Assembly: GCA_902791215.1 (NCBI GenBank)
Contig: CADAUZ010000005.1
Span: forward strand, 1 to 64,000
Reading direction: 5' to 3'
Length of the DNA stretch: 64,000 nucleotides
Source of the DNA: Oscillospiraceae bacterium
Lineage (GTDB): Bacteria > Bacillota > Clostridia > Oscillospirales > Oscillospiraceae
This document shows positions 45,200 to 61,800 of the stretch, piece after piece. Positions within the stretch are counted from its first letter, which is position 1; the number at the start of each line of letters is the position of its first letter. Both the position numbers and the translations under genes were made by a program. The notes below the pieces were generated by a model. That model searched no databases and was not told the origin of the DNA. It saw nothing but the letters and a program-made list of their open reading frames with translations.

Positions 45200-45226
45200 A
45201 AATGCGTTTCACGGTGAAACGCATTT
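45200..45226. promoter_or_regulatory. ICE palindrome 1 (parS-like, 1-base centre)
   Basis: A perfect 27-bp palindrome with an odd centre: 13 bases, G, 13 bases; the core is CGTTTCACGGTGAAACG. It touches the stop codon of the DUF3789-like gene (45225-45227). Confidence 0.85.
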
Positions 45227-45320
45227 AATCATCACGGTCATCATGTCCGGCCTGAAGCAAACACATATAGAACACGCTGATTGTGCTTCCGAGAAACATA
45301 CCGATCATAAACTTAATCAT
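45225..45320 (-). CDS. Tiny membrane protein of the DUF3789 type (31 residues)
   Basis: The frame reads MIKFMIGMFLGSTISVFYMC, one membrane helix, then a short acidic tail LLQAGHDDRDD. It matches my memory of DUF3789 proteins, very short membrane proteins carried by Firmicutes conjugative elements; their function is unknown. AGAGGA precedes the ATG at 45320 by 7-8 bases. A copy of the ICE palindrome lies on each side, the downstream one overlapping its stop codon. Confidence 0.65.
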   Translation of the reverse strand: MIKFMIGMFLGSTISVFYMCLLQAGHDDRDD

Positions 45321-45338
45321 TGTGATTTCCTCTTTTCC

Positions 45339-45363
45339 AATCCGTTTCACCGTGAAACGGATT
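45339..45363. promoter_or_regulatory. ICE palindrome 2
   Basis: A perfect 25-bp palindrome: AATCCGTTTCAC, C, GTGAAACGGATT. It lies just upstream of the ribosome site of the DUF3789-like gene and downstream of a terminator. Confidence 0.85.
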
Positions 45364-45378
45364 TTTGACTTGATATGA

Positions 45379-45407
45379 CAAAATCCGCACTCTCATGTAG
45401 TGCGGAT
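45379..45407 (-). terminator. Terminator upstream of the DUF3789-like gene
   Basis: ATCCGCACT pairs with AGTGCGGAT around a 7-base loop; on the minus strand TTTTG follows. It lies 9 bases after the stop of the short frame 45416-45712. Confidence 0.75.
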
Positions 45408-45415
45408 CAGGGGTA

Positions 45416-45712
45416 TCACGATTTATTCAAAGGCGAAAACAGACGGCGGCGGGGCGGGCCGCTCCGTAGGATATGTTTATTCGTGCCTCCCTCCATGCTT
45501 ATGGCGGGACGTTTGACTCTGTGACGTGCCATCAACGTAAGTATCATTATACCTGCTTGCGGATCATTGCCGGCTGCCATGCCATAGGCTGCATACAGCG
45601 GTGGTGTTGTTCGCTCCGTTGTCGATCTGTTCACCTCCTTACCGACTGACGATCCCGGCGCACCCGCTGCCTGGCTTCCCGCAAGCAGAACGTATCTGCC
45701 TGCCCTATTCAC
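45416..45712 (-). CDS. Possible small ICE gene (start unclear)
   Basis: An open frame ends 9 bases before a good terminator and contains a strong Shine-Dalgarno, AAGGAGGTG, but no standard start codon follows it at the right distance. Only GTG inside the ribosome site, or later internal ATGs, are available. The frame reads RSTTERTTPPLYAAYGMAAG and NDPQAGIMILTLMARH, which looks coding-like, then a Pro/Arg-rich tail. I recognise no family. It may use an unusual start, be a short leader, or be decayed. Confidence 0.3.
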   Translation of the reverse strand: MNRAGRYVLLAGSQAAGAPGSSVGKEVNRSTTERTTPPLYAAYGMAAGNDPQAGIMILTLMARHRVKRPAISMEGGTNKHILRSGPPRRRLFSPLNKS

Positions 45713-45719
45713 TTGTGAA

Positions 45720-45744
45720 AATGCGTTTCATGGTGAAACGTATT
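45720..45744. promoter_or_regulatory. ICE palindrome 3
   Basis: AATGCGTTTCAT, G, GTGAAACGTATT: the same site with two unpaired positions. It lies between the HTH gene and the short frame 45416-45712. Confidence 0.75.
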
Positions 45745-45812
45745 ATTAGACTGGTTTCCCAGCCCGCAGAAACACGCTGCCAGCGGCGGCGCGCTTCTGC
45801 CGGATGGAAAGC

Positions 45813-46055
45813 TCACGGGTCGAAATCATCCGGGGGATCAGCAAACCGAAAAGTAAAGATAGCGGCATATAAGGCGTTTTCCGCGAAGTATCTCAAATCC
45901 TCATCAGGATATGTCCGGATATTGCCGTTCTCGTCCTCATAGCTTTGCAGACAGAGGCTTGCGATAAAGCCCTCATACTGCTTTTTAATTGCTTCCGCAG
46001 CTTCAATATCATTCATTTTTGCTGCCTTGATTACTGCAAATGGAATCAGCTTCAT
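45813..46055 (-). CDS. Conjugative-transposon HTH protein (ORF8-like)
   Basis: An 80-residue protein matching the small helix-turn-helix proteins of Tn916-type elements (HTH_16, ORF8-like). Visible are MKLIPFAVIKAAKMNDIEAA, IKKQYEGFIASLCLQSYEDE and a conserved Tyr-Phe region DLRYFAENALYAAIF. In Tn916 the equivalent gene pairs with the sigma-like ORF7 in controlling conjugation genes. Here too it overlaps the preceding sigma-like gene by 4 bases (ATGA), indicating coupled translation. Confidence 0.8.
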   Translation of the reverse strand: MKLIPFAVIKAAKMNDIEAAEAIKKQYEGFIASLCLQSYEDENGNIRTYPDEDLRYFAENALYAAIFTFRFADPPDDFDP

Positions 46056-46480
46056 CCTTTGCCTCTCATCAATTCCTGTAATTTCTCCATGCCGTCGTGC
46101 CTCCGGTCACGGACTGTCGTTCTGGCGAGGTTCAAGGCTTTCCCGATCTCCACATCATTTTTGCCCATAATATAAGAGAGGAGTAAGACATTGCGCCGCT
46201 GCGGAGGAATTAAGCGCAAGGCTTTCGCAAGATCTTCATTCATGACAGGGATTGCTAAACCATTTATTTCAAAAACCTCCGCTGCCATATCCTGTGCAGA
46301 CAAGTTGTTGTCTGGCAGATCAAGAGCGTTATTATTGTTTTCATCTAAAACGGTCAAAGGGATTTCATGTTGTGCTCGGAGACTCTTTTTCCGAAGCCCA
46401 CGTTTCACGGCGTTGTTAATGGCGGTCATGCAGTAGGCGTTAAAGGTGATTTCGTTAAAGCGTTCATACCGGTTGCTCAT
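46052..46480 (-). CDS. Sigma-70-like regulator of the ICE (ORF7-like)
   Basis: A 142-residue protein related to sigma factors. Its second half shows LRLIPPQRRNVLLLSYIMGK, NDVEIGKALNLARTTVRDRR, a region-4-type helix-turn-helix that recognises -35 elements. The N-terminal part (FNAYCMTAINNAVKRGLRKK) resembles a short region 2. In Tn916-like elements ORF7 activates transfer genes when excision is induced. It is the first gene of a two-gene unit with the HTH protein. Its own promoter was not identified with confidence in the 400 bases upstream. Confidence 0.8.
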   Translation of the reverse strand: MSNRYERFNEITFNAYCMTAINNAVKRGLRKKSLRAQHEIPLTVLDENNNNALDLPDNNLSAQDMAAEVFEINGLAIPVMNEDLAKALRLIPPQRRNVLLLSYIMGKNDVEIGKALNLARTTVRDRRHDGMEKLQELMRGKG

Positions 46481-46613
46481 TTCTGTACCTCTCTTTTTGT
46501 GCTTTCTACTCTATAACAGTCCGGTGATGACCCCAAAAGGCGGATATTCGCAATATCCTCAAAAACCTCCCATAACAAAATTGTTTTCATCATTTTTCGC
46601 GTGATGGGGCGAC

Positions 46614-46637
46614 AAAAAAGCGCCCATTTCTGGACGC
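46614..46637 (-). terminator. Distal terminator of the restriction operon
   Basis: Minus-strand GCGTCC-AGAAAT-GGGCGC followed by TTTTTT. Confidence 0.75.
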
Positions 46638-46715
46638 TGATTTGACAGTGCTTGTTGTTTATCTAAAGCTGAGTGTAGCCATTTATTCCCATGTATTCAA
46701 GAAAAAAGCGTCGAA

Positions 46716-46742
46716 AAATGCGTTTCACGGTGAAACGCATTT
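46716..46742. promoter_or_regulatory. ICE palindrome 4
   Basis: A perfect 27-bp palindrome identical to palindrome 1 over its whole length, about 146 bases beyond the hsdR stop. Confidence 0.85.
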
Positions 46743-46847
46743 CCATGCTCACATTAAGATTCCACTAAGAGTTTTGCACGTCAAAGCAAAAAACTACTCA
46801 ATACAGTGGAGTTCTCTACTTTACTGACTTGTTAATATAAACCAAGA

Positions 46848-46882
46848 AAAGGGAAAGCACCTGAGATTGGTACTTTCCCTTT
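46848..46882 (-). terminator. Proximal terminator after hsdR
   Basis: AAAGGGAAAG (minus strand) pairs with CTTTCCCTTT around a partly paired loop, 6 bases beyond the hsdR stop; TCTTGGTTTAT follows. Confidence 0.7.
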
Positions 46883-46887
46883 GAGCT

Positions 46888-49800
46888 TTAATCGCTATAC
46901 TTTTTGAAGTTCTCTGCCTGTTCAAGAATGTCGTTATATACCTTCTCGTAGATTTCCGGCGGTGTCGGCGGATAACCGTGTTTTGCCAAAATGATAATAA
47001 TATCTGTTTGCATGATGGCCTTGATTTGGGCGCTGTTTGCCCAATCAGCATACTTTTCTTTATCCCGCAGGGCTGCACGGATTTCTTTCGCAAGTTCGAT
47101 GTTTTCACTCTCCGGGAAATCAAACTTGAATCTCTCTGCAACTGCTGTGAGAATATCAAAAAATGCCTTTTCTTCGTAATCAATGCCCATAGCATTGAAT
47201 GATTCTTGTTCTTCTTTTATCTTTTGAAGAAGATCAAGCAACTGATCAGCAACATCGTCAAGGATACTTTTTACATAGTCAGCATCCGACATGCGGCTAT
47301 TGTAGTTATCGAGAACATCCTGCAATCGTTCTTCAAAGGTCTTTGCCTTGATTTTGTTGACTTTCTTGAACTCGCTGACTTTCTTTTTTAATAGTTGTGT
47401 CAGTATTTTGACTTTGGTGTTTGGCAGCTTGATCCGGCTAATTCGGTTAAGATATTCTTCACTGAACAAGTCCACGGCTTCGGCGTTCACGCTGGTATCT
47501 GTTGAGAAAACTTCCTCAACTCCCTCGGATTTTATGGCTTCCTCCAACATTTTTTGGACATGTGCGTTCATGGTATCTGTGTCTGGAGCATCGCCCTTGG
47601 TCAGCTTAAACAGAATAGAGCGCACAGCTTTATAGTAGTGGATAAGGTCAAGCTCATACTTGGTAAAGTCTTTCCCGCTGTTGCATAGATTAAACGCCTT
47701 TGAAAGTCTGAGAACATTGGACATGAAGCGTTGCTCCAGCTCTTTTGTCTTCTGGACAAACTCAGCGGCTTCATTTAAGCATTGCAGCTTTTCTCCAGGT
47801 GTCCCGGTGAAGTATTTGGTATTGTCAAAGCCGTGCATTATGGCGTCAAGTACTTCAAGCTGATCCCGGACTACGCGGATCGCAGCCTGAACGTTATCGT
47901 CGTCGAAGCCGTCCTCATGGAAATCTGTGTATGTTCGCAATGCGGCCAACAGGCCGAGCTTGATTCCAATGAAATCAACGATAAGCCCGCTGTCCTTCCC
48001 GGCGTATGACCTGTTCACGCGGGAAACAGTCTGGATAATTGTATGGCTCTGCGTGATGGGCTTGTCTATGTAGATTGTATCAAGGAAGGGCACATCAAAC
48101 CCGGTGAGCCAGAGGTCAACGACAATCGCAATCTTAAAATTGCTGTGAATATTCTTGAATTGGGTTGCCGCGGTTTTACGAACAGAATCCGTGCCGAGCA
48201 GGTCGTACATAGCCCGTTCGTCGTCCTTTGACCTCGTTGCCACAAACTGACACATAGGCATTGGGATCAGTTCTTTCTTGTCCTGCTCAGAGAGTTCAAC
48301 ACCGTCCGGCGCGACCTTCAACTCGAACCACTCCGGACGTTTTGATTTTAGAATGTTATAGAACTTGAACGCTATCGGGCGGGTCATGCAGACAAACATA
48401 CATTTCCCCGCAACAGTGGAGCCCTCTCGAACGCGCGTTTCATAATGGTCGATGAAGTAATCAGCAACAGAATTAAGCACATCATCATCACCAACAATGG
48501 CCTCAAGGCTTGTAACCTCTTTCTTGCTGGCTTCGACCTGGTACTCGTTGCTTCCGGCGGCAAGGCACTGTTTATAGTATTCCTCAATCTCCTGTACCTT
48601 CTCATCGTCGAGGACGGCCCTCGCAGGCCGACCGTCATATACGAGACGGACAGTTATTCCATCCTTAACAGAATCCGTCATGGTGTATTGGTCAATGACA
48701 GGCCCGAATACATCCATAGTGGCATCCACCGGCGTTCCTGTGAAACCGATATATGTTGCCTGCGGCAAAGCGGTATGGAGGAACTTTGCAAAGCCATAGC
48801 GTTTCAAAACTTCGTCGGACTTCACAACCAGCTTCATGTCCAAATTGTTGCTCGTTCGGTGTGCCTCGTCAGAAATACAGATGATATTTTGGCGGGTGCT
48901 GAGTTCACCAAACTCGTCTGCAAACTTCTGAATCGTCGTCAGGTACACGCCCCCGCTGGCCGTCTTTGCCAGAACATCCTGCAGCTGCTCCCGGCTATCC
49001 ATTTCTACGACACTATTATCACCGATGAACTTCTTGGAATTCAGGAACTGACGGGAAAGCTGATCGTCCAGGTCGGAACGGTCAGTAATCAAAACGACTG
49101 TGGGAGAATGAAGGCTTGGCTCGTGCATGATAAGCCGTGTCAAAAACAGCATGATAAAGCTCTTGCCACATCCGGTCGTGCCGAAGTATGTACCGCCTTT
49201 GCCATCACCAATGGGCTTTTGGTGTGACAGAATGTTAGCCAACAGCTTCCGCGCAGCGAAGTATTGCGGATAACTGGCTACCACTTTCACATTCTTGCCG
49301 TTATCTGTATCGGGGAAATAGATGAAATTATGGATTATGTCGTACAGGCGTTCCTTCCGAAACATGCCCTGTATCATCGTATCCAGTGCGTCTATACCGT
49401 CTGCCGGGCGATCATTTGCTTCAATGCGCCGCCAGGAATAGAAATGCTCATAGTCTGCAAAAATGCTGCCGGCTTTCGTATTTACGCCGTCAGAAAGGAC
49501 AGCAAAGCAGTTATACTTGAAAAGCTCCGGGATGTCCCGCATGTAGCGTGTAGTGATTTGTACGTAGGCATCATGGATCGTTGTGTCTTCTTTAATGGCA
49601 GACTTGAACTCCATTACCACAACGGGCAAACCATTTATGTATACGATGGCATCCGGGCGGCGTGTTGCCTTCGGCCCTTTGACGGTCATCTGATTGACGA
49701 TCTTGACTATATTCTTATTTTCAGTTTCGTCAAAGTCAATCAGGCGCAAATAGAAGTCCTTTGCGCTTCGGTCTTCTCGGACGAAGTTTTCCCCTTCAAC

Positions 49801-50064
49801 CATTCTATGAAACATGCTGCGGTTGGCGCTGTACACCGGCAGCGCGGAAGCGTACCGGAGGGAGCGGATGATGGAACTGATCTCGGAGCCGGTGATGCCC
49901 TGCGGGGCGTACTTCACCGCAAGGAATGCAGAGAGATCTTCTTCAATCAGAACGTCCGTCAGTTCTCTATGAAGGTCATCTCCGGAGACGTAATCGTAGC
50001 CCTCCGCTATGAACTTGTCTATTATAGCCTGTTCAAGAACGGCCTCAGAAAAGATAGCTGGCAT
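46888..50064 (-). CDS. hsdR: Type I restriction enzyme, R subunit
   Basis: The 1058-residue motor-nuclease subunit of a type I restriction system: it binds with HsdM and HsdS, translocates DNA using ATP and cuts at a distance. The nuclease core RRPDAIVYINGLPVVVMEFK (residues about 135-155) has the D...ExK residues. The helicase has Walker A GTTGCGKSFIMLFLTRL (about 290), DEAHRT (about 400), IGFTGTP, and later VVDLWLTGFDVPFLDTIYID and QTVSRVNRSYAGKD. The helical C-terminal part binds the methylase complex. The ATG follows AAGGAG, 6 bases beyond the stop of the small upstream gene, so it belongs to the hsdM-hsdS-orf-hsdR operon and ends at two terminators. Length and motifs look intact. Confidence 0.96.
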   Translation of the reverse strand: MPAIFSEAVLEQAIIDKFIAEGYDYVSGDDLHRELTDVLIEEDLSAFLAVKYAPQGITGSEISSIIRSLRYASALPVYSANRSMFHRMVEGENFVREDRSAKDFYLRLIDFDETENKNIVKIVNQMTVKGPKATRRPDAIVYINGLPVVVMEFKSAIKEDTTIHDAYVQITTRYMRDIPELFKYNCFAVLSDGVNTKAGSIFADYEHFYSWRRIEANDRPADGIDALDTMIQGMFRKERLYDIIHNFIYFPDTDNGKNVKVVASYPQYFAARKLLANILSHQKPIGDGKGGTYFGTTGCGKSFIMLFLTRLIMHEPSLHSPTVVLITDRSDLDDQLSRQFLNSKKFIGDNSVVEMDSREQLQDVLAKTASGGVYLTTIQKFADEFGELSTRQNIICISDEAHRTSNNLDMKLVVKSDEVLKRYGFAKFLHTALPQATYIGFTGTPVDATMDVFGPVIDQYTMTDSVKDGITVRLVYDGRPARAVLDDEKVQEIEEYYKQCLAAGSNEYQVEASKKEVTSLEAIVGDDDVLNSVADYFIDHYETRVREGSTVAGKCMFVCMTRPIAFKFYNILKSKRPEWFELKVAPDGVELSEQDKKELIPMPMCQFVATRSKDDERAMYDLLGTDSVRKTAATQFKNIHSNFKIAIVVDLWLTGFDVPFLDTIYIDKPITQSHTIIQTVSRVNRSYAGKDSGLIVDFIGIKLGLLAALRTYTDFHEDGFDDDNVQAAIRVVRDQLEVLDAIMHGFDNTKYFTGTPGEKLQCLNEAAEFVQKTKELEQRFMSNVLRLSKAFNLCNSGKDFTKYELDLIHYYKAVRSILFKLTKGDAPDTDTMNAHVQKMLEEAIKSEGVEEVFSTDTSVNAEAVDLFSEEYLNRISRIKLPNTKVKILTQLLKKKVSEFKKVNKIKAKTFEERLQDVLDNYNSRMSDADYVKSILDDVADQLLDLLQKIKEEQESFNAMGIDYEEKAFFDILTAVAERFKFDFPESENIELAKEIRAALRDKEKYADWANSAQIKAIMQTDIIIILAKHGYPPTPPEIYEKVYNDILEQAENFKKYSD

Positions 50065-50069
50065 TTACA

Positions 50070-50507
50070 TCACTCTCCTTCGTCATAGTCGATGATAAAA
50101 TACGGGCTCATACTATGTCTTGATACGGCAGAAAGCGGACTCCCAGATGAAGACACCGTACACTTTCCCATGACGCTTTTGTCCGCTTTTTCGATTAGCG
50201 TCACTCTGAACCACGTTTTTACGGTTCCAGCGATATTCCGGTAGTACTCAGGGATACCAGATAATTCAGGCGTTTCATAAGAAATATCGTCTACGTGGAG
50301 CCAATACCGTTTGTTCGTCCCACTATGGATGAGCAGTACACGCTTATCATCAGCAGACAATATTTCAGTTCTGTTTTTTTCCGATACTCGCGCTCCGAAC
50401 TTGCCATACCAGACGAAACCATATCGTTCAATTATTCTTTTGTGTTCCGCGATAGTACCGTCTTTCGGCGCGATATTATCTGCAAAACGTAATGCTATAG
50501 TCTTCAT
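50070..50507 (-). CDS. Unknown protein between hsdS and hsdR (possible PUA/EVE-like fold)
   Basis: A 145-residue protein beginning MKTIALRFADNIAPKDGTIA. RYGFVWYGKFGARVSEKN and KRVLLIHSGTNKRYWLHVDD follow, then IPEYYRNIAGTVKTWFRV and a variable end. The pattern of a Trp-Tyr-Gly-Lys strand, a hydrophobic LLIHSG strand and a paired Trp later reminds me of the EVE/PUA-like domains that read modified bases, but this is inference and I do not know a named family. It sits inside the restriction operon (21 bases after hsdS, 6 before hsdR) with a GAGAGG ribosome site, so it is almost certainly co-expressed and may tune target recognition or protect modified DNA. Confidence 0.6.
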   Translation of the reverse strand: MKTIALRFADNIAPKDGTIAEHKRIIERYGFVWYGKFGARVSEKNRTEILSADDKRVLLIHSGTNKRYWLHVDDISYETPELSGIPEYYRNIAGTVKTWFRVTLIEKADKSVMGKCTVSSSGSPLSAVSRHSMSPYFIIDYDEGE

Positions 50508-50528
50508 AAACTCTGCCTCTCAACCATA

Positions 50529-51659
50529 TCATATTGTCCCTATGGAAAGGCGGCTCATGATAAGCGATGTCAATTTGTTTAACAATACCATCTCATGAAG
50601 GTTATTCTTCACCGTAGAAAACAACGGTGTTAATTCCTTTTCAACCTGTTCTAAAACACCTCTCTCGACGGAAACAATCTGAAAGTTTTCAAACAGTGAT
50701 TTGTTAATATTAATCATTGTAGATCCGGCGTCTCCAAGAGCACGTAATTCTTCTCGACTCTTCTTTAGAGCACAGTATATGTATCTTGGAAAACGAGTAA
50801 TAACTGCATTGATCTGTTGGTTTGTTTGGGCTTCACAAGAAGTCAGAGAGACTTCACCAGCATTTGCCCCGATACATGAAACAATAACTGAATCAGGTGG
50901 TAAGTATTTATTTGATTGGCTATCAGCACCCAATTTGGATAAGGCACTCTCCCACGACACAACGTATAGGTTATCATGCATGTCAGGGGTTTTGATAAAA
51001 GGGACATCATTTCCATAGTATTCAGGAGCATCCGTAGACGGTGTTTTTCCTGTTAAGACTTTTCCATACTCTTTTAAGGACTTTTTTTCTATACTATTCT
51101 TTGTGGCTTCTTCGAAAATAGAGAATGACTGAGCTTCTATGATTTCATTTACCTTCCGTAGCAGTGCGATACGGTCAGTGATGACCTGATAATCCCGGAC
51201 GATCTTCTGCTGCTCCGGGAGCGGCGGGACAGGGAGCTCAACGCCACACATACAGTCCCAGTCGAAGACCTCTCGGGCACTGCCGTTGGACATGAAACGG
51301 GCATAGCGGTCAAACTCCGGGCGCATGAACCAGAGCATCAGATATTCAGGGAGCAACTGATCTTCGTCAACGATTTCAAAGACTGTACAAATGCTGCTGA
51401 CAATGATTTTCTCTCCCGTTGTATTCAGGGATATAGCAATTTTGTCGCCACGTCGGGATGTATCAGGGATATATGCAAACTGCTTCGGTGCAACGACCTT
51501 ATAGCTGTCAAAGGTGACGCCTACCAGATTGGCATGGGTCACTATGAAGTCTTTGGTGACGGATATCCCGTAGAGATTGTCTTCTCCGAGGGATCCGTCG
51601 CTATTTCTTTCATCGACCGGGCGTATATAACTGCCCAGCTTATTATAATTCGATCTCAT
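50529..51659 (-). CDS. hsdS: Type I restriction enzyme, specificity subunit
   Basis: A 376-residue HsdS with two target-recognition domains. The first (1-145) ends at the conserved VELPVPPLPEQQKIVRDYQ, followed by the helical spacer (150-185). The second (about 190-330) includes YGKVLTGKTPSTDAPEYYGN and NNINKSLFENF-like text, followed by a last helix bundle. Each domain reads one half of a split DNA sequence, and the spacer sets the gap. The start lies inside the end of hsdM (17-base overlap). Only one hsdS copy is present, with no recombinase or inverted partner beside it, so switching by inversion is not suggested here. Confidence 0.93.
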   Translation of the reverse strand: MRSNYNKLGSYIRPVDERNSDGSLGEDNLYGISVTKDFIVTHANLVGVTFDSYKVVAPKQFAYIPDTSRRGDKIAISLNTTGEKIIVSSICTVFEIVDEDQLLPEYLMLWFMRPEFDRYARFMSNGSAREVFDWDCMCGVELPVPPLPEQQKIVRDYQVITDRIALLRKVNEIIEAQSFSIFEEATKNSIEKKSLKEYGKVLTGKTPSTDAPEYYGNDVPFIKTPDMHDNLYVVSWESALSKLGADSQSNKYLPPDSVIVSCIGANAGEVSLTSCEAQTNQQINAVITRFPRYIYCALKKSREELRALGDAGSTMININKSLFENFQIVSVERGVLEQVEKELTPLFSTVKNNLHEMVLLNKLTSLIMSRLSIGTI

Positions 51660-53229
51660 AGCCCAGTCCTTTCATTACTTCCAGCAGGTCTTGTCTGGAC
51701 TGCTGCTCCTGAACGAGTAATTCCTTCAGCTCGCCCTGAAGCTGAGACATCTTTTCCTCATAGCCGACGGACTCGTCCCGGTTTACAAACTCGATATACC
51801 GGCTGGGAACAAGGCTGTAATCCCTCTCGACGATTTCGCCTTTCTTGGCAGCATAACAGAATTCCGGGATATCCTCGTAAGGAGTTTCATACCCCTCAAA
51901 TCGCCATGATTTGAACCGGTCTACGATGATGGCGCGGTCTTCCTCTGTGAATTCGATGTATTTTTTCTCGTATGGATGACCCATCTGCCGAAGATCCATA
52001 AAAAGGACTTCATCGGAGCGGTCACGGAAAGTAACATCGCCGCCGGGTCGCTTCTCAATGCGGGACTTTTTATTCTTGTTCAGTATCCATGCCGTGACGG
52101 AAATATCCGTGGTGTAGAACATATTTCGAGGCAGGATAACGATAGCCTCAACGCGGTCATTCTCAATCAGGCGCTTCCGGATCTCATACTCGTCATTGCC
52201 CTCTGTTCCAGCAGACAGCGCGCCGTTTGCCAGCAGCACCACGCCGACACCGTTCTGCCCGAGTTTGGACAGTGTATTCAGAAGCCAGCCATAGTTGGCA
52301 TTACTGGTCGGAGGCGTCGGATACCCGTTCCAACGAGGGTCATCATTCAGCTGATTGGCCTCGCGCCAGTCCTTCTGGTTGAAGGGCGGGTTTTCCAGTG
52401 AGAAATCCGCTTTCAGGTCTTTATGCTGGTCGTTCAGGAAGGTGTTTGCAGCCTCCGCGCCGAGGTTCGCAGAGATGCCCCGGATCGCGAGGTTCATCTT
52501 AGCCAGGCGCCGGGTCGTATCCGTCAGCTCCTGGCCGTAGATGGATACGTTCAGGCGGTTGCCCTTGTGCTCGTCCACAAAGCGCATAGACTGAACAAAC
52601 ATGCCACCGGAGCCACAGGCTCCGTCATATACAACACCGGAATACGGCTCGATCAGTTCGCAGAGTAAAGCGACAACTGTTCTCGGTGTATAAAACTCCC
52701 CCTTACCTTTGCCCTCTTTCAAAGCAAACTGACGCAAGCAATACTCATAAACACGACCAAAAACATCCTTATCGCCACCTACCTGAAGGTCTATCCCGTT
52801 GATCAGATCAAGCAAAGAGGACAAGCCGCTGGGGTCCATGTGAAGGCGTGAATAATAGTTATCCGGCAAAGCTCCTTCCAGTGTCGGGTTCTTCATTTCA
52901 ATCTCATGCAGCGCGGTATCAATCTTGATTGCAATATCAGGCTGCTTTGCGTTCTCCATGATAAAGGCCCAGCGCGCACACTCCGGGATATAAAACACAT
53001 TGTCTTTCGTGTAGAAAGGCATCATTTCCAGAAAAGCCTGTTGGCCTGCGGCAATCATCTGTTCCCGGTGATCATTGAATCGGTCATTCGCATATTTCAA
53101 AAAGATCATGGACAGAACAACATGCTTGTACTCGGCTGGCTCCACCTTGCCGCGCAATTTGTTCGCTGCATCCCAAATGGTCTGCTCAATGGGCTTCTGT
53201 TCCTTTGCCTTTTTCTCTCCCCGTGCCAT
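51643..53229 (-). CDS. hsdM: Type I restriction enzyme, methylase subunit
   Basis: A 528-residue adenine-N6 methyltransferase. The N-terminal helical domain includes KLRGKVEPAEYKHVVLSMIF. Motif I VYDGACGSGGMFVQS (about residue 203) binds S-adenosylmethionine and motif IV NPPFNQKDW (about 279) is the catalytic NPPF. It methylates the host DNA at the HsdS-defined site and is required for cutting. It is the first gene of the operon with its own promoter at 53281-53309 and AAAGGAG before the ATG. A copy of the ICE palindrome lies about 30 bases upstream of that promoter. Confidence 0.96.
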   Translation of the reverse strand: MARGEKKAKEQKPIEQTIWDAANKLRGKVEPAEYKHVVLSMIFLKYANDRFNDHREQMIAAGQQAFLEMMPFYTKDNVFYIPECARWAFIMENAKQPDIAIKIDTALHEIEMKNPTLEGALPDNYYSRLHMDPSGLSSLLDLINGIDLQVGGDKDVFGRVYEYCLRQFALKEGKGKGEFYTPRTVVALLCELIEPYSGVVYDGACGSGGMFVQSMRFVDEHKGNRLNVSIYGQELTDTTRRLAKMNLAIRGISANLGAEAANTFLNDQHKDLKADFSLENPPFNQKDWREANQLNDDPRWNGYPTPPTSNANYGWLLNTLSKLGQNGVGVVLLANGALSAGTEGNDEYEIRKRLIENDRVEAIVILPRNMFYTTDISVTAWILNKNKKSRIEKRPGGDVTFRDRSDEVLFMDLRQMGHPYEKKYIEFTEEDRAIIVDRFKSWRFEGYETPYEDIPEFCYAAKKGEIVERDYSLVPSRYIEFVNRDESVGYEEKMSQLQGELKELLVQEQQSRQDLLEVMKGLGYEIEL

Positions 53230-53340: not shown

Positions 53341-53365
53341 AATGCGTTTCACGGTGAAACGCATT
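53341..53365. promoter_or_regulatory. ICE palindrome 5
   Basis: A perfect 25-bp palindrome with the common core. It overlaps the stop codon of the SLOG-like gene (53364-53366) and lies upstream of the restriction-operon promoter. Confidence 0.85.
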
Positions 53366-53900: not shown

Positions 53901-53921
53901 TCTTGATTGGGTGCTGTTGAG

Positions 53922-54373: not shown

Positions 54374-54379
54374 GTATAG

Positions 54380-54410
54380 AAAAAGGACGCGGCACAGATG
54401 CACCGCGTCC
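54380..54410 (-). terminator. Terminator of the membrane protein gene
   Basis: GGACGCGG (54385-54392) pairs with CCGCGTCC (54403-54410); on the minus strand TTTTT follows. Confidence 0.85.
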
Positions 54411-54428
54411 AAAAACGCTTAATAATAA

Positions 54429-55316: not shown

Positions 55317-55512
55317 ATCTATATCTCCTAATTTCCATTATCATTTGCTAGTAATACGCTAATTGTTAAAACGCAGTGTTTTCAAATGAGCTCAATACTA
55401 CTCCCTCCCGTATTGTATCATCATATAAATGACAATACAAGCAAGCTTTTCTTTAAAGACCAGCAATTAAAGAGTGAAGTTTACATAATATTTTTCACAG
55501 GGAGTTATTAAG
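55317..55512. other. AT-rich gap where a toxin gene would be expected
   Basis: The 196 bases after the RelB-type antitoxin (minus strand) hold no open frame of toxin size, so no RelE/YafQ partner is present. Confidence 0.5.
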
Positions 55513-55809
55513 TCAGGCAAGCCCACGTTCCAGTTCGTCAAAGACCTGGTCATACGGGCGTCCTGCCCCGGCAAGTGACTGTTCATAGCTGTGCTGGATT
55601 TTGGCGTCCAATTCTGCCGTACTCATGGTATCCAGCGTTTTCGGCTCCACCGGGATCGTCAGGGAGAAGGGAACGCCATGCCGGTAGATGATCTGGCGAT
55701 ACAAGGAGTTAATGACCACTGAAACCGGAATACCCAGCTTCTGCAAAATATTCTCTGCTTCTGTCTTCACATCGTATTCCACGCGGGCGCTGACCATTGC
55801 GTCTTTCAT
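55513..55809 (-). CDS. RelB/DinJ-type antitoxin without toxin (first copy)
   Basis: A 98-residue protein with the ribbon-helix-helix start MKDAMVSARVEYDVKTEAEN and ILQKLGIPVSVVINSLYRQI, the DNA-binding and dimer part of the RelB/DinJ antitoxins. GVPFSLTIPVEPKTLDTMS and a C-terminal toxin-binding tail follow. The ATG at 55809 follows AAAGGTGG; a more upstream start adds only MPLKGGVF. Normally a toxin gene of the RelE/YafQ type overlaps the end; none is found here. It may act in trans, neutralising toxins of other elements or the host, or be the survivor of a decayed module. Confidence 0.82.
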   Translation of the reverse strand: MKDAMVSARVEYDVKTEAENILQKLGIPVSVVINSLYRQIIYRHGVPFSLTIPVEPKTLDTMSTAELDAKIQHSYEQSLAGAGRPYDQVFDELERGLA

Positions 55810-55918
55810 GAAAACACCACCTTTAAGGGGCATTGTACTATAATGTTATGCGGTTTGCAATACATTAGTCAAACCTTATGGGGTTCATGGCCTTATAAGA
55901 AGATGCGCTTCAATAATT

Positions 55919-55943
55919 AATGCGTTTCACGATGAAACGTATT
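55919..55943. promoter_or_regulatory. ICE palindrome 6
   Basis: AATGCGTTTCAC, G, ATGAAACGTATT: the common site with two unpaired positions. It lies between the divergent antitoxin gene and the unknown gene at 56145, in a gap (55810-56144) with no gene; a TATAAT at about 56062 may be part of the latter's promoter. Confidence 0.75.
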
Positions 55944-56144
55944 TTTTGCACTTAACAAGCTAATTAAAGAGCAGAGGCACATATGAAGTATGTTTCCTGC
56001 GCTCCATGTTCTTTGCATCAAGCAACATAACAAACCGATATATACAAATAGCCTTTATTATGATATAATGATAGTCGAAAAATGATGATTTAAGTCGTTG
56101 AAGCTTATCCATTTTTAGGTAATCCAATAGAGAGGAGAAACAAT

Positions 56145-57836
56145 ATGCAGGATTTAAGCTCAACAATGTTTTATAAGGCTAAGTTTACTGTAACGGCAAA
56201 TGAGCCAACTGCTGATTTGTTGTGGACGCTGATTATGGAAATTCGCGGATGGCTTCTCAGCAAGTGGAATATTGGCGGACATACTATTATTGATTCTAAA
56301 ATGAAGGCATGGACGCGATTCAAAAATGGTGGGAAAATATTTGATGAGGAAAAAACCAACCACGTTTATGCAGAGTCGGTATTTCACATCTCAGAGGACA
56401 GTGCAGTAAAATCGTGGGCTTGTAAAATCGTTGAAAAGAAAGACCCTGTTGAGGGATATGCTCAAAGAGAATGGACAACAGAAATAGGCTATCAGTCAAA
56501 AACTGACATGTCTGCTGAGATTTCATATGTTGTTACATACAACGACATGCCAGGCTTTATTGGTTTTTGTGAGGATAATCCTGTTATAACTGTTCCTCGT
56601 GTAATCAGGAAACTACTCGATCATGACAAAATTATCTGTTCAATTGGCCCTGATACATTGACAAACGATCCAATATGGCTTAATCCAGGCGACTATCCTT
56701 CTTTTGAAAAAGTCCTATTTAACCCTGAGCGTGAAGTACCCGTCATTTACATTAGTCCATGCCGATCTAGTGAAGATGCAGATGATACGGATTTGTTGAT
56801 GCTCGTCAATCCTATAAAACTGGCAAAAAGTGTTGCTGCTAACGCTCTGGTCTATTGTTCTAACAAGATCGATTTTGCAAGTGAAATGAGATGGTTTATT
56901 GACGAGAGATATGGCTGTGCAGGAGGAGCAATTCGCTTGTATCGTCCCAAAATTAATATAAACGACCATAATGACCGTTTTAAACACAGATTTATACCTG
57001 CTGCCTTTATACGTGAAAATGGTGAAGAGTGTGTGTTTGATATTTTTCGCAGAGCACTTGCTCAAGATGTCCATTTTTATGAGACAATGTTTCGACTGGA
57101 TAGCTGTAAAGCTCTTGTTGACGAAGATGAACGGCATAAGAAAATAAAAGCGATACGAGCCAAAAGTGAGACAGAAATTGACGAGGCAATGCGAGAGTAT
57201 CTTGATGAATCGGACAAGCGTGAAGCAGCGGAGAGACGTGCACGGGAATATAAAGAAGAACTAGATAGACTAAAGTCAGATAATTACAATTTGGAGCTTC
57301 AAGTTGATGCTTTGAGAGAAACAGCATCACAAGCAAAAATGATTGAAGCCGCGAGTCAAAATGTACGAACTATAAGTGATTATCCCAATACGCCGCAAGC
57401 TATTGCCAAATATTTTGAAACAGTCTACCCAGACCGTGTTGTCTTCACAGAGCGTGCATACCGGTCAATGAATGAATGCCAAACTCGTAGTGATTTTCTT
57501 TGGGAGGTATTTTATCATGTTGCGAACGATTTGTATGACTTATTACATGAAAATCCTGCCCAAGCGTATAAGGAGTTTACGCAAAGAACAGGATGGGACT
57601 GTTCACGTGGAGTTGGCTCAATGACCCATGTTGACAGAAGTCTGATGAAACAATACTTTGATGTTTACAACGGGCAAGAGATCAACATTGAGGCACATAT
57701 TAAAAATGGAACAAAAGATAATGATCCTAAATCTATTCGGCTCTATTTTGCCTATGAACCTCAATTAGTTGATAAGATTATAATTGGACATTGTGGTAAG
57801 CACCTTGATAATTATAGCACGAAGAAAATTAGGTAA
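56145..57836 (+). CDS. Unknown AT-rich 563-residue protein, possible defence cargo
   Basis: The start follows GAGGAG at about 9 bases. Four parts can be seen. Residues 1-190 form a compact domain (LLWTLIMEIRGWLLSKWNIG, EWTTEIGYQSK). Residues 190-320 are an alpha/beta region with VPVIYISPCRSSEDADDTDL and ANALVYCSNKIDFASEMRWF. A coiled coil covers about 330-410 (AMREYLDESDKREAAERRA). The C-terminal domain (about 420-563) ends with IRLYFAYEPQLVDKIIIGHC and GKHLDNYSTKKI, a strand-rich ending reminiscent of small RelE-like toxin or nuclease folds, though this is only an impression. I cannot assign a family. The strong AT bias, solitary position and place beside a restriction system and antitoxins make a phage-defence or abortive-infection role plausible but unproven. 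There is no signal peptide or membrane helix. Confidence 0.7.
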   Translation: MQDLSSTMFYKAKFTVTANEPTADLLWTLIMEIRGWLLSKWNIGGHTIIDSKMKAWTRFKNGGKIFDEEKTNHVYAESVFHISEDSAVKSWACKIVEKKDPVEGYAQREWTTEIGYQSKTDMSAEISYVVTYNDMPGFIGFCEDNPVITVPRVIRKLLDHDKIICSIGPDTLTNDPIWLNPGDYPSFEKVLFNPEREVPVIYISPCRSSEDADDTDLLMLVNPIKLAKSVAANALVYCSNKIDFASEMRWFIDERYGCAGGAIRLYRPKININDHNDRFKHRFIPAAFIRENGEECVFDIFRRALAQDVHFYETMFRLDSCKALVDEDERHKKIKAIRAKSETEIDEAMREYLDESDKREAAERRAREYKEELDRLKSDNYNLELQVDALRETASQAKMIEAASQNVRTISDYPNTPQAIAKYFETVYPDRVVFTERAYRSMNECQTRSDFLWEVFYHVANDLYDLLHENPAQAYKEFTQRTGWDCSRGVGSMTHVDRSLMKQYFDVYNGQEINIEAHIKNGTKDNDPKSIRLYFAYEPQLVDKIIIGHCGKHLDNYSTKKIR

Positions 57837-57886
57837 ACATCACGTTCTGATATTTAGAAAAACAAATTTGCGAACGATATACGTGA

Positions 57887-57932
57887 CAATTAATGTAAGG
57901 CATTCAATATAATGAATGCCTTACATTAATTG
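57887..57932. repeat. Perfect 20-bp hairpin after the unknown gene
   Basis: CAATTAATGTAAGGCATTCA (57887-57906) pairs without mismatch with its complement (57913-57932) around a 6-base loop. No U-tract follows. It may be a terminator or a recombination scar marking the cargo boundary. Confidence 0.65.
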
Positions 57933-57983
57933 CTTGGGCTTTTCCACGATATATTGACGCAACGGAGCAATAATGTGTTTCTA

Positions 57984-58096
57984 TGGTCGGTCAGGCCATC
58001 GCTCTCCTAATCGTAGAAGATCAGGTCGCCGGGGCTTGGCTCATAGTCCATGTACTGCCATTGGTCGCGCTCCCGGAACCATTCCACATACGGGAT
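57984..58096 (-). pseudogene. Fragment of a CHAP domain (decayed copy)
   Basis: This stretch is a near-copy of about 59440-59552 inside the intact hydrolase gene: it covers the part around SPGDLIFYDWE, with substitutions. It lacks the active-site cysteine and histidine regions on both sides. Together with the fragment at 58696-59066 it is the residue of a second copy of that gene. Confidence 0.75.
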
Positions 58097-58170
58097 AGGT
58101 TCAATTTCTTGGGGCGGATAGCGTAACATCTTACGAAAGAATCAGGAGTGAATATTTCACCCCTGATTCT

Positions 58171-58288
58171 TCAAGCTGCGTTTTGTTCAAGCATCTCCAG
58201 AAAATCTCTCGATGTGACGATAAACGGATCTGCCGGAAAATGCGTCCAGTTCCCGGATCGTATCCAGCGCCCCATAACAGCGCATCAT
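58171..58288 (-). pseudogene. Remnant of a PIN-type toxin partnered with the second RelB
   Basis: The antitoxin's stop overlaps an ATG (58286-58288), the usual coupling to a toxin gene. The frame starts MMRCYGALDTIRELDAFSG and then, in a shifted frame, reads ADPFIVTSRDFLEMLEQNAA to a stop at 58171, a recognisable end of a PIN-domain (VapC-like) protein. Only about 40 codons are left where some 130 are expected, so the catalytic acidic residues have been deleted. The toxin cannot be active. Confidence 0.55.
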
Positions 58289-58584
58289 GAGCCCTCCCCA
58301 TGCCGAACTTTGCGGATTTCCTCATTTATTTCATCAATAGACATGTCCTGTATTCCGTTCTCCTTTGTTTGCGCACGGAGAGCGGAAAACGCCTCCGCTC
58401 CGGATAGTCTGGGTTGCCCAGCACTTGATGCCGAAATTTCAAAAGGTATACGGCGTTCCCGAACGACTGCCCGCGCAAATACATTGATGGCGGTGGTCAT
58501 GCTCATACCAAAATCCTCACACAGCGAGTCAAAATCATTCTTTAAGTCCTCGTCCATACGGACACTAAAAGTTGCCTGTCCCAT
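58285..58584 (-). CDS. RelB/DinJ-type antitoxin (second copy), toxin decayed
   Basis: A 99-residue antitoxin: MGQATFSVRMDEDLKNDFDS with LCEDFGMSMTTAINVFARAV is the ribbon-helix-helix domain, followed by ERRIPFEIS and a C-terminal tail with DMSIDEINEEIRKVRHGE that would wrap the toxin. AAAGGAGGTG precedes the ATG at 58584. Its stop overlaps the start of a truncated PIN-type toxin, so the antitoxin is now alone. The two antitoxins of this element differ in sequence and belong to different subgroups. Confidence 0.85.
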   Translation of the reverse strand: MGQATFSVRMDEDLKNDFDSLCEDFGMSMTTAINVFARAVVRERRIPFEISASSAGQPRLSGAEAFSALRAQTKENGIQDMSIDEINEEIRKVRHGEGS

Positions 58585-58695
58585 AACATGCACCTCCTTT
58601 ATATATATTCTATTCAATTAGGTTCAAAATGTCAACATTTGTGAACGTATTTGGAATCAAAATGATATTATGTCATAGATTCCTTGCACCATAAA

Positions 58696-59066
58696 TCAGT
58701 AGGCCGGTGTTCCGTACCCATAAATCGGCGCGGTGGCGAGGTAGGGGCTGTTCTCAATACCTCGGCAAGTGTTTGGACGCCGACCATGATGGAGTATTCG
58801 GGATCGGTGATGCCTCCTGGCTCACGGGGATACTCGGTGTTGTATCCGCTCTCCGAGCATTGCATGGGGTCGCTGGTCTGGCCTCCGCTCTTCTGCATCA
58901 TCACGGCGGCGATCAAGTCCTCGAATTCAGGGATGCCAAACTCTGCGGCATACTGCCGGATCAGAGGCTGGTAGCCCTCTATATCCTCACTGACAGGCAC
59001 AAAGTTGTCGCGGCCTTTGCCGGTATAAAGGCTCTGCGTTAGACGCGGACATAGTGGAGGAAGCAC
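58696..59066 (-). pseudogene. Decayed duplicate of the lysozyme-CHAP hydrolase
   Basis: The first part is a close copy of the lysozyme-like domain of the gene at 59304-61799 (TGKGRDNFVPVSEDIEGYQP, FGIPEFEDLIAAVMM). It then jumps, with a frame change, to the very end of that gene (ENSPYLATAPIYGYGTPAY), so everything between is deleted. The catalytic glutamate of the QESGG motif is changed to lysine (KSGG). There is no membrane segment or repeat region upstream. It is non-functional and marks a duplication of the hydrolase gene. Confidence 0.8.
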
Positions 59067-59146
59067 AACGGGACAGCGCCATATGATGACGCTGCCTCGT
59101 TCCTGTTGTGAGCTATACTTCCATTTGAATATGAAATTGTCAGTTT

Positions 59147-59171
59147 AATACGTTTCACGGTGAAATGCATT
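59147..59171. promoter_or_regulatory. ICE palindrome 7
   Basis: AATACGTTTCAC, G, GTGAAATGCATT: the common site with two unpaired positions, 133 bases beyond the stop of the hydrolase gene, in a 237-base gap with no gene. Confidence 0.75.
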
Positions 59172-59303
59172 GCTTTGTGCTAACGTGATAATTGCGGCTT
59201 GTTTAGAGGCTTATATAAGAAATTGGAATAATGCAATGCCCGTTGCACAATTCTGATTTTTGTGACTGATTATAGAGGAAAGATCTCATACAGAGTACAA
59301 CGT

Positions 59304-61799
59304 TTAGTAGGCCGGTGTTCCGTACCCATAGATCGGCGCGGTGGCGAGGTAGTGGCTGTTTTCGATGCAGGCGTCACCGGCGTTGCCCTCAATGCTGTAC
59401 ACGATACCGTCCTCCACGCGCTCAACGATGCCCACATGGTCAGCCAGTCCGTCGCTCTCCCAATCGTAAAAAATCAGGTCGCCGGGGCTTGGCTCATAGT
59501 CCATGTACTGCCATTGGTCGCGCTCCCGGAACCATTCCACATACGGGATCACATTCAGCTCCTTCGGCAGTATGCCCGCGTCCAGGTAGCCGCATTGGTC
59601 GGCGCACCAGCTTACAAAGATCGCGCACCATTCCACACGGTAAGGATAGCCATACCACTCGCAGTATTTCAGCCCGCCCTCGTTGCCGATCTGCGTCTGT
59701 GCCACGGCAACAATGGCAGCGTCCCCCTCGCTCATAAAGGAGCGTCCGATGGGGTAATAACGGAGAACATGGGACACATAGGCTTTGTCGCCGTAGCCCG
59801 ACCATCCGTACTGCTCGGCCATCATGTCGGAATACTCAATCGCGTTAAGCTCGGAATAGCCGCCGTAGTTGGACAGCGCCCAGGAGATATAGCCGGAGCC
59901 GTAGTTATAGCCTTGCAGAGCCAGTGAGATACCGTCCAGATCGACGGGACTATCCACACCAGCCATATCAAGGACTTCGGCAAGCGTCTGGACGCCGACT
60001 TTGATGGAGTATTCGGGATCGGTGATGCCGCCCGGCTCACGGGGATACTCGGTGTTGTATCCGCTCTCAGAGCATTGCATGGGATCGCTGGTCTGGCCTC
60101 CGCTTTCCTGCATCATTACGGCGGCGATCAAGTCCTCGTATTCGGGGATGCCAAACTCCGCGGCGTACTTTCGGATCAGAGGCCGGTAGCCCTCCACGTC
60201 CTCACTGACGGGCACAAAGTTGTCGCGGCCTTTGCCGGTGCTTGTCAGCATGGAGGCCACGCCCATAACCACGACAAAGGGGATCAGGATCAGAATAAGG
60301 ATGCCCGCTGCATAGATCAGCGTTTCCCGGCTGGGCGTGAGCGCCCTGCTTACTGCGACACTGAGCGCTTTTATGACCTTGCTGCCGGTGCTGACTGTGC
60401 CGGAAGTCAGTTCCTTGACCGCTTTCTCACGGGCGGCTTTCCGGCCTTGCTCTTTGATGAGCTGTTTCTTTGCGGCTTTGATTGAGGAAGTATTACGGGG
60501 CAGCGCCGTCTGACGCTGCCCCGCAACTGTGATGGGAGATTTTACGCTTTCTCGGATTTCTCGCTTTTTGGGCTGGATGCGTGGTTTTACGCTTTCGGCC
60601 TCATTCTTTATTGGGCTGACCGCCGGTGCTTCGCTTGCCTGAAGGATAGGCGCGGTTTCTTTCTCTCCGTCAAGAAAAGTCTGGAGCATCTGCTTTTGAG
60701 GCTTTTCGGCTCTGGGAGCCGGAGCCTCGGCGTAATCCGTTTCATGGTGAAACGCATTTTTGCCCTGTTCGGCTCTGGCCTGCCGGTACTCTTTGACGGC
60801 CTCGCGGCGCATACGCTCCTGGGGCGTTGATGCTTTGGGAGTCGGAATCTCGGCGTAATCCGTTTCAAGGTGAAACGCATTTTTGCTTTGTTCAGCTTTG
60901 GTCCGCCGGTACTCTTTGACCGCCTCACGGCGCATACGCTCCTGGGGTGTTGATGCTTTTGGAGCCGGAGCCTCGGAGTAATCCGTTTCACGGTGAAACG
61001 CATTTTTGCTTTGTTCAGCTTTAGCCTGCCGGTACTCTTTGACCGCTTCCCGGCGCATACGCTCTTGAGGCGTCGGTGGCTTGGGAGCCGGAGCTTCGGT
61101 GTAATCCGTTTCATGGTGAAACGCATTTTTACTCTGTTCAGATCTGGTCTGTTGGTACTCTTTGACCGTTTCCCGGCGCATACGCTCCTGGGGTGTCGGT
61201 GTTCTGAGAACTGGAGCCTCGGAGTAATCCGTTTCATGGTGAAACGCATTTTTGCCCTGTTCGGCTTTGGCCTGTCGGTATTCCCGGACAGCCTCCCAGC
61301 GCATACGCTCCTGGGATGTTGGTGTTCTGGGAGCCGATGCTTCGATATAATCCGTTTCACGGTGAAACGCATTTGGGCTCTGTTCGGCTTTGGCCTGCTG
61401 GCACTCTTTGACTGTTTCCCGGCGCATACGCTCCTGAGGTGTTGGTACTTTAGGTGCTGGAGCCTCATGCCGCGTGTAGGCATGAGAGGGACGAGCTTTC
61501 GGTTCCGGGGCCTCGCGGTAATCCGTTTCACGGTGAAACGGATTATTTTCATGCCGTGGATAGCGGATTATCTCATGAACCGCGCCAGAGGTATAAGATT
61601 CCACTTTATCCGTCGCGGAGTATGGTTCCTGATCCTGCTGCGAAGCTGCGCTTTGCTGGGTCTCCCGGACTTGCTTTCTTGCCGCTTCAATCGCCTTATA
61701 GCGCCCGGCCCGCCGCACGGCTGCTTTCGGGGTGAGCTTGCTGTCCGGCTTTTCCTTGATATGCTTTCCCCGGACAGCCTCTTTCTTTTTCCTCTCCAT
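59304..61799 (-). CDS. ICE cell-wall hydrolase: repeats, membrane helix, lysozyme-like and CHAP domains
   Basis: An 831-residue protein of the kind conjugative elements use to open the wall at the transfer pore (CwlT/ORF14 analogue). Residues 1-370 are charged and hold seven copies of NAFHRETDY, six in 41-residue tandem repeats (PTPQERMRREAVKEYRQA and so on). A membrane helix is at about 493-518 (LIYAAGILILILIPFVVVMG). A lysozyme-like domain follows, with AAVMMQESGGQTSDPMQCSE (catalytic Glu), then a CHAP domain with VEWCAIFVSWCADQCG (catalytic Cys) and ADHVGIVE (His). The repeat region would be cytoplasmic and is much longer than I know for such proteins. Each NAFH-ETDY is encoded by the ICE palindrome, so the DNA may have a second job. 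It directly follows the VirB4-like gene. Confidence 0.9.
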   Translation of the reverse strand: MERKKKEAVRGKHIKEKPDSKLTPKAAVRRAGRYKAIEAARKQVRETQQSAASQQDQEPYSATDKVESYTSGAVHEIIRYPRHENNPFHRETDYREAPEPKARPSHAYTRHEAPAPKVPTPQERMRRETVKECQQAKAEQSPNAFHRETDYIEASAPRTPTSQERMRWEAVREYRQAKAEQGKNAFHHETDYSEAPVLRTPTPQERMRRETVKEYQQTRSEQSKNAFHHETDYTEAPAPKPPTPQERMRREAVKEYRQAKAEQSKNAFHRETDYSEAPAPKASTPQERMRREAVKEYRRTKAEQSKNAFHLETDYAEIPTPKASTPQERMRREAVKEYRQARAEQGKNAFHHETDYAEAPAPRAEKPQKQMLQTFLDGEKETAPILQASEAPAVSPIKNEAESVKPRIQPKKREIRESVKSPITVAGQRQTALPRNTSSIKAAKKQLIKEQGRKAAREKAVKELTSGTVSTGSKVIKALSVAVSRALTPSRETLIYAAGILILILIPFVVVMGVASMLTSTGKGRDNFVPVSEDVEGYRPLIRKYAAEFGIPEYEDLIAAVMMQESGGQTSDPMQCSESGYNTEYPREPGGITDPEYSIKVGVQTLAEVLDMAGVDSPVDLDGISLALQGYNYGSGYISWALSNYGGYSELNAIEYSDMMAEQYGWSGYGDKAYVSHVLRYYPIGRSFMSEGDAAIVAVAQTQIGNEGGLKYCEWYGYPYRVEWCAIFVSWCADQCGYLDAGILPKELNVIPYVEWFRERDQWQYMDYEPSPGDLIFYDWESDGLADHVGIVERVEDGIVYSIEGNAGDACIENSHYLATAPIYGYGTPAY
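60734..61544. repeat. Array of seven ICE palindromes inside the hydrolase gene
   Basis: Sites are centred at 60746, 60869, 60992, 61115, 61238 and 61361, each exactly 123 bases from the next, and at 61532, 171 bases further. All share AATCCGTTTCA at the left and GTGAAACG at the right; the copy at 61532 is a perfect 25-bp palindrome. In the coding frame each gives N(A/P)FH-(R/H/L)-ETD with identical codons except the central one and the Ala/Pro codon. The 123-base unit equals 41 codons, so reading frame and site spacing are both kept. Confidence 0.9.
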
Positions 61800-61800
61800 A

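Follow-up and report, generated by a model that had tools for sequence, protein, structure and literature searches.

KorB of plasmid RK2 is a ParB-family protein of a conjugative element that contains disordered segments, recognises operators with a one-base centre, TTTAGC(c/g)GCTAAA, and controls genes over long range, silencing them at a distance as a CTP clamp (PMC11790492, PMC2680271, PMC5577506); 12 such operators (O_B) are scattered over RK2 (PMC10954446), which also has ParA (IncC) and the partner protein KorA. Chromosomal ParB and Noc combine a ParB_N domain with a helix-turn-helix and use spacer-free sites, parS (TGTTTCAC-GTGAAACA) and NBS (TATTTCCC-GGGAAATA), respectively (PMC7383237). 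Most IncC plasmids carry 12-14 dispersed ParB sites, one of them before the par operon, and SGI1, a satellite of IncC, carries sites without par genes (PMC10954446). BisD of ICEclc, termed a CTP clamp (PMC12704722), is a ParB-domain protein controlling transfer genes of an integrative and conjugative element (ICE) (PMC7423338, PMC9286271), and ParB-like proteins without a ParA partner occur on mobile elements (PMC12704722, PMC5512222). Here we describe a set of palindromes on an ICE of an Oscillospiraceae bacterium. They came to light in a window of 64,000 nucleotides (C5:1-64,000, C5 being contig CADAUZ010000005.1) of its 3.19-Mb genome, and they are very probably the loading sites of an orphan ParB-family protein encoded by the same element.

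KorB offers the closest working model by analogy: as in RK2, a ParB-family protein on a conjugative element is accompanied by dispersed sites with a one-base centre. Disordered segments are a further trait in common, and long-range gene control is probably another. The two systems differ in the half-site, which is TTTAGC in RK2 and GTTTCAC-N-GTGAAAC here, and the present protein has two ParB_N domains, about 25 sites and an ICE of a Clostridia-type host as its setting, with part of the sites lying in coding repeats. The half-site GTTTCAC is that of parS, as a sequence-only reading of the window had recognised in agreement with the published parS (PMC7383237); the one-base centre, which that reading set against parS, is present at the sites but not unprecedented, since the KorB operator has one (PMC2680271). 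The ICE sites do not match the NBS half-site TATTTCCC, and the host's own parS lies on another contig (C12), not on C5. IncC plasmids differ in possessing ParA, in the spacer-free core TTTCACATGTGAAA and in ParB binding by electrophoretic mobility shift assay (PMC10954446), whereas the sites here are predicted from sequence. Unlike the present protein, BisD acts with BisC and has parA in the same cluster; the accessible text describes no comparable dispersed site set for it (PMC7423338, PMC9286271), and no cognate site set for orphan or mobile-element ParBs of this kind (PMC12704722, PMC5512222). On present evidence the ICE system is neither ParABS nor canonical parS nor KorB-O_B.

The sequence-only reading had listed about 14 palindromes with a one-base centre at 45200..61544 of the window. 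All 14 were matched in their places by GTTTCACNGTGAAAC with at most one mismatch, and the window total stays at 14 with two allowed, whereas up to two mismatches would give a mean of 0.28 and no more than 2 matches by chance (100 shuffles of the 64-kb window). It had likewise reported none in the flanking chromosome, and window positions 1-45205 contain no match to GTTTCACNGTGAAAC with up to two mismatches. The proposed count in element and host gave the same picture: the exact pattern GTTTCAYNRTGAAAC occurs 23 times in the whole 3.19-Mb genome, each time inside the ICE (C5:45206-92407), and its reversed control not once. A looser scan of C5:42001-122000 returned 25 centres, all between 45213 and 92400, with the consensus AATnCGTTTCAC-S-GTGAAACGnATT; perfect arms of at least 12 bases (at least 25 bp) are found at 13 of these 25 sites and at 5 of the 14 in the window. 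Among 394 genomes of the order, 11 others hold GTTTCAYNRTGAAAC once apiece and none of the other 393 more than once (reversed control in this set: 18 matches in total).

Seven of the window sites lie outside and seven inside a gene for an 831-aa hydrolase (59304..61799, minus strand), the split that had been read from the sequence. The first ParB-type palindrome is at 45201..45225 (centre 45213, perfect over 27 bp), followed by those at 45339..45363 (centre 45351, perfect over 25 bp, C/G at the variable outer pair), 45720..45744 (centre 45732, one core mismatch), 46717..46741 (centre 46729, perfect over 27 bp), 53341..53365 (centre 53353, perfect over 25 bp), 55919..55943 (centre 55931) and 59147..59171 (centre 59159), the last two with one core mismatch each. 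Sites 45732 and 46729 fall within small open reading frames from a mechanical gene pick, which we do not trust. The idea that the sites mark gene ends holds for part of the set: site 53353 overlaps the stop codon of the gene at 53364-53930 (minus strand) and several further sites lie within 25 bp of a stop, whereas others are upstream of genes (mobC, virD4 and, in relatives, parB) or within coding repeats. Contact with stop codons is partly explained by the palindrome itself because TGA, as read directly, is present in one of the three frames through it.

The ParB-like protein that had been postulated further along the ICE is encoded beyond the window, at C5:77592-79748 on the minus strand. 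Its 718 residues include two ParB_N domains (PF02195, 74.5 bits in two stretches) and a linker in which 78% of the residues are Pro, Ala, Glu or Lys; TIGR00180 matches with 102.8 bits at a cut-off of 58.45. A profile of ten ParB cores matches ParB and Noc structures, and KorB at 1.2e-4, and the helix-turn-helix that follows ParB_N is reached in the three profile alignments printed (7ol9, 1vz0, 6sdk). Motifs of the GxRR and N-L-x-R types are nucleotide-binding motifs of the ParB family; conserved columns of the core comprise SGxRR and the N and R of DGNLHRE, which are predicted to serve this purpose. Judged by these profile matches, the ICE protein is a member of the ParB family. The two-domain form is not general, as several distant relatives (e.g. 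G184, G161, G310 and G139; such labels are our handles for genomes, contigs and loci) have one GxRR motif.

To place the sites in a wider context, 29 loci including our own were compared with their flanks, 10 from named genome contigs and the rest from further genomes; G685 and L069 are the same contig, the genome of L069 apparently being G685 again. When half-site words separated by 0-3 bases were counted without supervision, a word of this family with a one-base centre came out on top in 22 of the 29 loci, L068 being counted in its three-base register. The remaining seven comprise three short contigs (G545, L066, L070), L067, where two sites rank below another word with three, G685 and L069, whose ParB is frameshifted, and G367_C12. 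In G367_C12 the ParB frame is fused to that of a long surface-type protein unrelated to it (2177 aa overall), with two degenerate sites left nearby. One-base-centre palindromes thus accompany ParB in related ICEs too, with other half-sites: loci with GTTTCAC have ParB cores 89-100% identical to our own, those with GTCTCAC 51-82%, those with GTCCCAA 43-44%, those with GTCTCAA 34-42%, and the single CCCTCAA locus 36%. The outer arms are AAATGCG-like in most loci, exceptions being G139 and the TTG-like arms in G055, G718 and G677. Genome-wide, GTYYCAMNKTGRRAC has 165 matches in 16 genomes versus 12 for its reversed control, and GTYTCAYNRTGARAC has 108 versus 0 in the 9 genomes behind loci. Elsewhere, viral contigs yielded 24 distant ParB loci (best segments at most 36% identical) and no exact match to AATGCGTTTCACNGTGAAACGCATT, a plasmid collection seven records, all below 60% identity, and 391 genomes of the class five ParB cores at 1e-28, namely our own and four in short ParBs at 34-41%. 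A search of the open-access literature, with most subscription journals outside its scope, returned no paper that we recognised as describing these sites.

Since these ICEs are mosaics, their genes can be compared against site type. Nearest neighbours agree in site type in 25 of 27 cases for the ParB core; to go by the tree, the two misses should be G139, which alone represents its type, and the sister locus of G139, G367_C7. The corresponding counts are 19/25 for RepA_N, 15/23 for DUF3846, 12/19 for ArdC, 14/19 each for MobC and relaxase, 11/17 for DUF3801, 8/18 for a 258-aa protein, 6/12 for VirD4, 6/10 for the pilin and 12/14 for the sortase. Within the close group (7 GTTTCAC versus 4 GTCTCAC loci) the area under the curve (AUC) is 1.00 for ParB and 0.33-0.70 for ten other genes, some on as few as 3 versus 1 loci, including RepA_N (0.46), MobC (0.60) and relaxase (0.54), the latter two on 4 versus 1 loci. 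Site types were assigned by hand, some loci being typed from 1-3 sites that include the one beside parB. When the comparison is restricted to the 4 + 3 loci typed also away from parB, the AUC of ParB stays at 1.00 and that of eight other genes is 0.44-0.73.

Pairing orthologous sites by their masked flanks gave 282 non-independent pairs, 122 of them between exact half-site words: in 76 the two sites agree, in 45 they differ in both arms and in one they differ in a single arm. This count replaces an earlier one of 110 both-arm changes among the 282 pairs, dropped because it did not separate real switches of type from single-base variation within one type. At least two types are found in eight of 18 position classes of perfect sites, and four in the class before mobC; six hybrid sites combine one half of each type. 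On the protein side, residue 455 is M in 7/7 ParBs of the GTTTCAC type and another residue in 20/20 others, in parallel with site base -5; this link is a lead only because the seven ParBs are close relatives.

Placement relative to parB is also shared. In 22 of the 29 loci the centre of a site lies 43-51 bp ahead of the parB start; in one of these (G367_C12) the site has three mismatches. In our own ICE the nearest site is 771 bp before parB, with a small gene pair (C5:79851-80484) lying between site 80519 and parB; by eye, the second gene of the pair is PIN-like. Further exceptions are G685 and L069 (432 bp), G310 and G340 (29 and 72-74 bp), G367_C1, for which a different start codon was used, and G055, at a contig edge. 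Several elements also have a site before mobC and before virD4. Beside the site upstream of mobC lies a conserved block (C5:72200-72350; also in L063 and L064) with a CCCCTAAAACCCC-like end, which may be the transfer origin.

The hydrolase gene contains six tandem repeats of 41 aa (123 bp) and one further copy, each with one palindrome. Those of the repeats are at 60734..60758 (NAFHHETD), 60857..60881 (NAFHLETD), 60980..61004 (NAFHRETD), 61103..61127 (NAFHHETD), 61226..61250 (NAFHHETD) and 61349..61373 (NAFHRETD); the further copy, at 61520..61544 (NPFHRETD), is perfect over 27 bp and lies 57 aa before the first 41-aa repeat. In the six aligned repeats, none of the eight palindrome codon columns (-2 to 5) varies synonymously, as opposed to 20 of the 33 others (Fisher p=0.003). 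Orthologues on other contigs retain the palindrome-bearing array. In G1127_C7, a contig with mostly GTCTCAC sites, the array has NVSHHETH, NVSHGETH and NLSHGETS, with the codons TCT CAC and GAG/GAA ACA, whereas our own NAFHxETD uses TTT CAC and GAA ACG; one G1125 copy has TAT instead of TTT. Apart from that copy, differing amino acids spell each contig's own site, and in the coding array it thus seems to be the DNA site rather than the peptide that is kept. A partial hydrolase copy (window 58668-59066) adjoins the full gene, with 77% identity over 118 aa.

A less biased test of co-occurrence than the 29 loci is provided by the family as a whole. The pattern GTYTCACNGTGARAC is present in 31 of 390 genomes of the family and in 10 of the 12 ParB-positive genomes found among 400 (p=1.3e-10); the remaining two, G184 and G367, have the GTCTCAA type.

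Several observations weigh against reading the palindromes as ParB loading sites. The full-length ParB model (AlphaFold, 31 sequences in the alignment) is unusable, with a mean pLDDT of 43.6 and a pTM of 0.22. Co-occurrence in the 29 loci is partly built in, because they were found through ParB, and the agreement of site type with ParB is partly explained by linkage, because some types rest on the parB-adjacent site. In the restricted set the relaxase also reaches an AUC of 1.00 (3 versus 1 loci) and MSCRAMM, compared only there, 0.85; L064 has a GTCTCAC site before its relaxase genes, yet a ParB of the GTTTCAC class. When the codon range of the hydrolase repeats is widened to -4 to 7, 2 of 12 site columns vary synonymously, and the fetched part of G1127_C7, with its NVSHHETH array, contains no ParB core. 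Many sites also form hairpins, several of them stable. Finally, 9 of the 16 genomes with at least three sites are without a ParB match at 1e-40; of these, G139 has a distant ParB (2.5e-30), G714 and G635 were left out of inspection, and the six others, partly fetched, have no ParB core in the stretches fetched.

With these points weighed, we still hold the loading sites of an orphan ParB to be a strongly favoured prediction. A ParB dimer would read two GTTTCAC half-sites that are separated by a single base pair, as are those of KorB operators, and the conserved AT-rich outer arms would probably assist it. Closing with a nucleotide, which is CTP in known relatives, the dimer would then slide off as a clamp; loading at about 25 points in about 49 kb could let it cover the whole element. 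Binding and clamp action are what we infer from these comparisons. As to the main function, we lean slightly towards element-wide gene regulation or coating of the element; a KorB- or BisD-like role of this kind seems likelier than autonomous partition. The remaining probability is shared by roles in transfer or incompatibility and by the rival explanations.

The best placed of these rivals is that the palindromes are ParB-type centromeres at which the ICE ParB would work with a borrowed host ParA, partitioning the excised circle that RepA_N replicates. A RepA_N initiator is encoded by the ICE and a ParA by the host, and the multi-site ParB of conjugative IncC plasmids partitions with its own ParA (PMC10954446). 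On the other side, the search for parA- and parB-like genes in the ICE, which for ParA drew on one Pfam family and one Walker pattern, recovered parB alone: there is no PF13614 match inside the ICE, and none of the stretches fetched for the 29 loci, which are partial in the case of relatives, contains the motif KGG[VT]GK[TS]. The strict ParA-binding motif of PMC12704722 occurs in none of the 29 ParBs and its relaxed form in one, the broken G367_C12 frame; this is a weak test because the host ParB, which reads LGIGL, also misses the strict form. Partitioning of the excised circle, one of the functions first suggested for the sites, is weakened in its autonomous form by these results on ParA, and partitioning with a borrowed ParA appears unlikely. 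The host encodes its ParB and ParA side by side on contig C12, close to two canonical parS sites, one exact and one with a single mismatch, and C5 contains no canonical parS 16-mer (TGTTTCAC-GTGAAACA) with up to two mismatches. As a pattern this agrees with the earlier suggestion that the one-base spacer may serve to avoid the host ParB.

Alternatively, the palindromes could be bidirectional intrinsic terminators or attenuators at gene ends. Five of six folded sites reach -12.5 to -16.6 kcal/mol, and in the relatives whose sequences were printed the pre-parB site often starts immediately behind a stop codon and lies ahead of the ribosome site. A terminator scan of window 44900-62000 (33 found, 16.5 expected) detected two intergenic sites with 11-pair stems and one with seven, as well as five of the seven coding copies, on the antisense strand. 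The change of both arms alone leaves this explanation standing, because the hairpin is kept too. No fixed word is required for termination, whereas here the core word is constant within an element and shifts with ParB, and the single coding copy folded, on the sense strand, is weak (-8.9 kcal/mol, z -0.94). Terminators as the primary explanation are therefore improbable, and a terminator role could still be a second function of the sites.

Genomes with sites and no detected ParB bear on a further rival, in which a different ICE protein that moves together with ParB, such as RepA_N, MobC or a sigma-like protein, uses the palindromes as its operators. L160 and L162 resemble pieces of an ICE and contain VirD4 together with VirB4 or VirB6 genes. 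Some of the genes for recombinase, RepA_N, MobC and the sigma-like protein are present in L157, L158, L159 and L161, the last of which also matches a relaxase in part; none of the four has a VirB4, VirB6 or VirD4 match in the stretch read. L157 (G616:C13:27.9-36.4 kb) has nine centres within two mismatches of GTTTCAC over about 9 kb; these sites represent another subtype, GTGTTTCAC, and genes for RepA_N and a recombinase are close by, with no ParB core found. This rival gains from L157, L158 and L159, which combine sites and RepA_N without a ParB core in the stretch fetched, and from the MobC and sigma-like genes of L158 and L159. The AUCs for site type (RepA_N 0.46, MobC 0.60, relaxase 0.54, against 1.00 for the ParB core) and the identity of GTTTCAC with the parS half-site (PMC7383237) speak against it, and we give it marginally less credence than terminators. 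The ParB-less site carriers may be satellites using a helper's ParB, as SGI1 does with IncC plasmids (PMC10954446), remains of decayed ICEs, or genomes whose ParB contigs are missing from draft assemblies. A short mobile or repeat-type palindrome spreading without a binding protein would suit sites that occur between genes, at their ends and within coding sequence alike, and tandem duplication could have enlarged the hydrolase array, but confinement to one element, positions common to diverged elements with both arms changed together, and codon-level constraint in the hydrolase repeats make it highly implausible.

The ICE extends from about 43.1 to 92.7 kb of C5 and interrupts one gene, the halves of which flank it (window 42626-43100 and C5:92774-93661); we take this to be a LysM-GH18-like gene of the spore-hydrolase type. 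A large serine recombinase is encoded at its left end (43232..44935, minus strand). Family matches identify a RepA_N initiator, a relaxase, a coupling protein, ArdA and DUF3801; a further gene is presumably VirB4-like, and we assume that the content as a whole resembles Tn1549-like elements. A cargo block between palindromes (window 46888-53229) has motifs that we take to be those of type I restriction-modification genes.

These results suggest a KorB-like whole-element system in a family of Clostridia-type ICEs. We tentatively propose, at somewhat less than even confidence, that ICE lineages keep a DNA address code of their own, consisting of up to about 25 lineage-specific ParB palindromes even in coding repeats. 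The code would be rewritten when ParB specificity changes, so that co-resident ICEs stay distinct, and short ParB-less satellites would carry the code for handling by a helper ICE, which poses a testable satellite question parallel to SGI1. The hydrolase array would then show how a DNA-binding site can shape repeats that encode protein, and the ParBs with their matched, differing sites, of four to five half-site types, form a natural series for the evolution of specificity and spacing.

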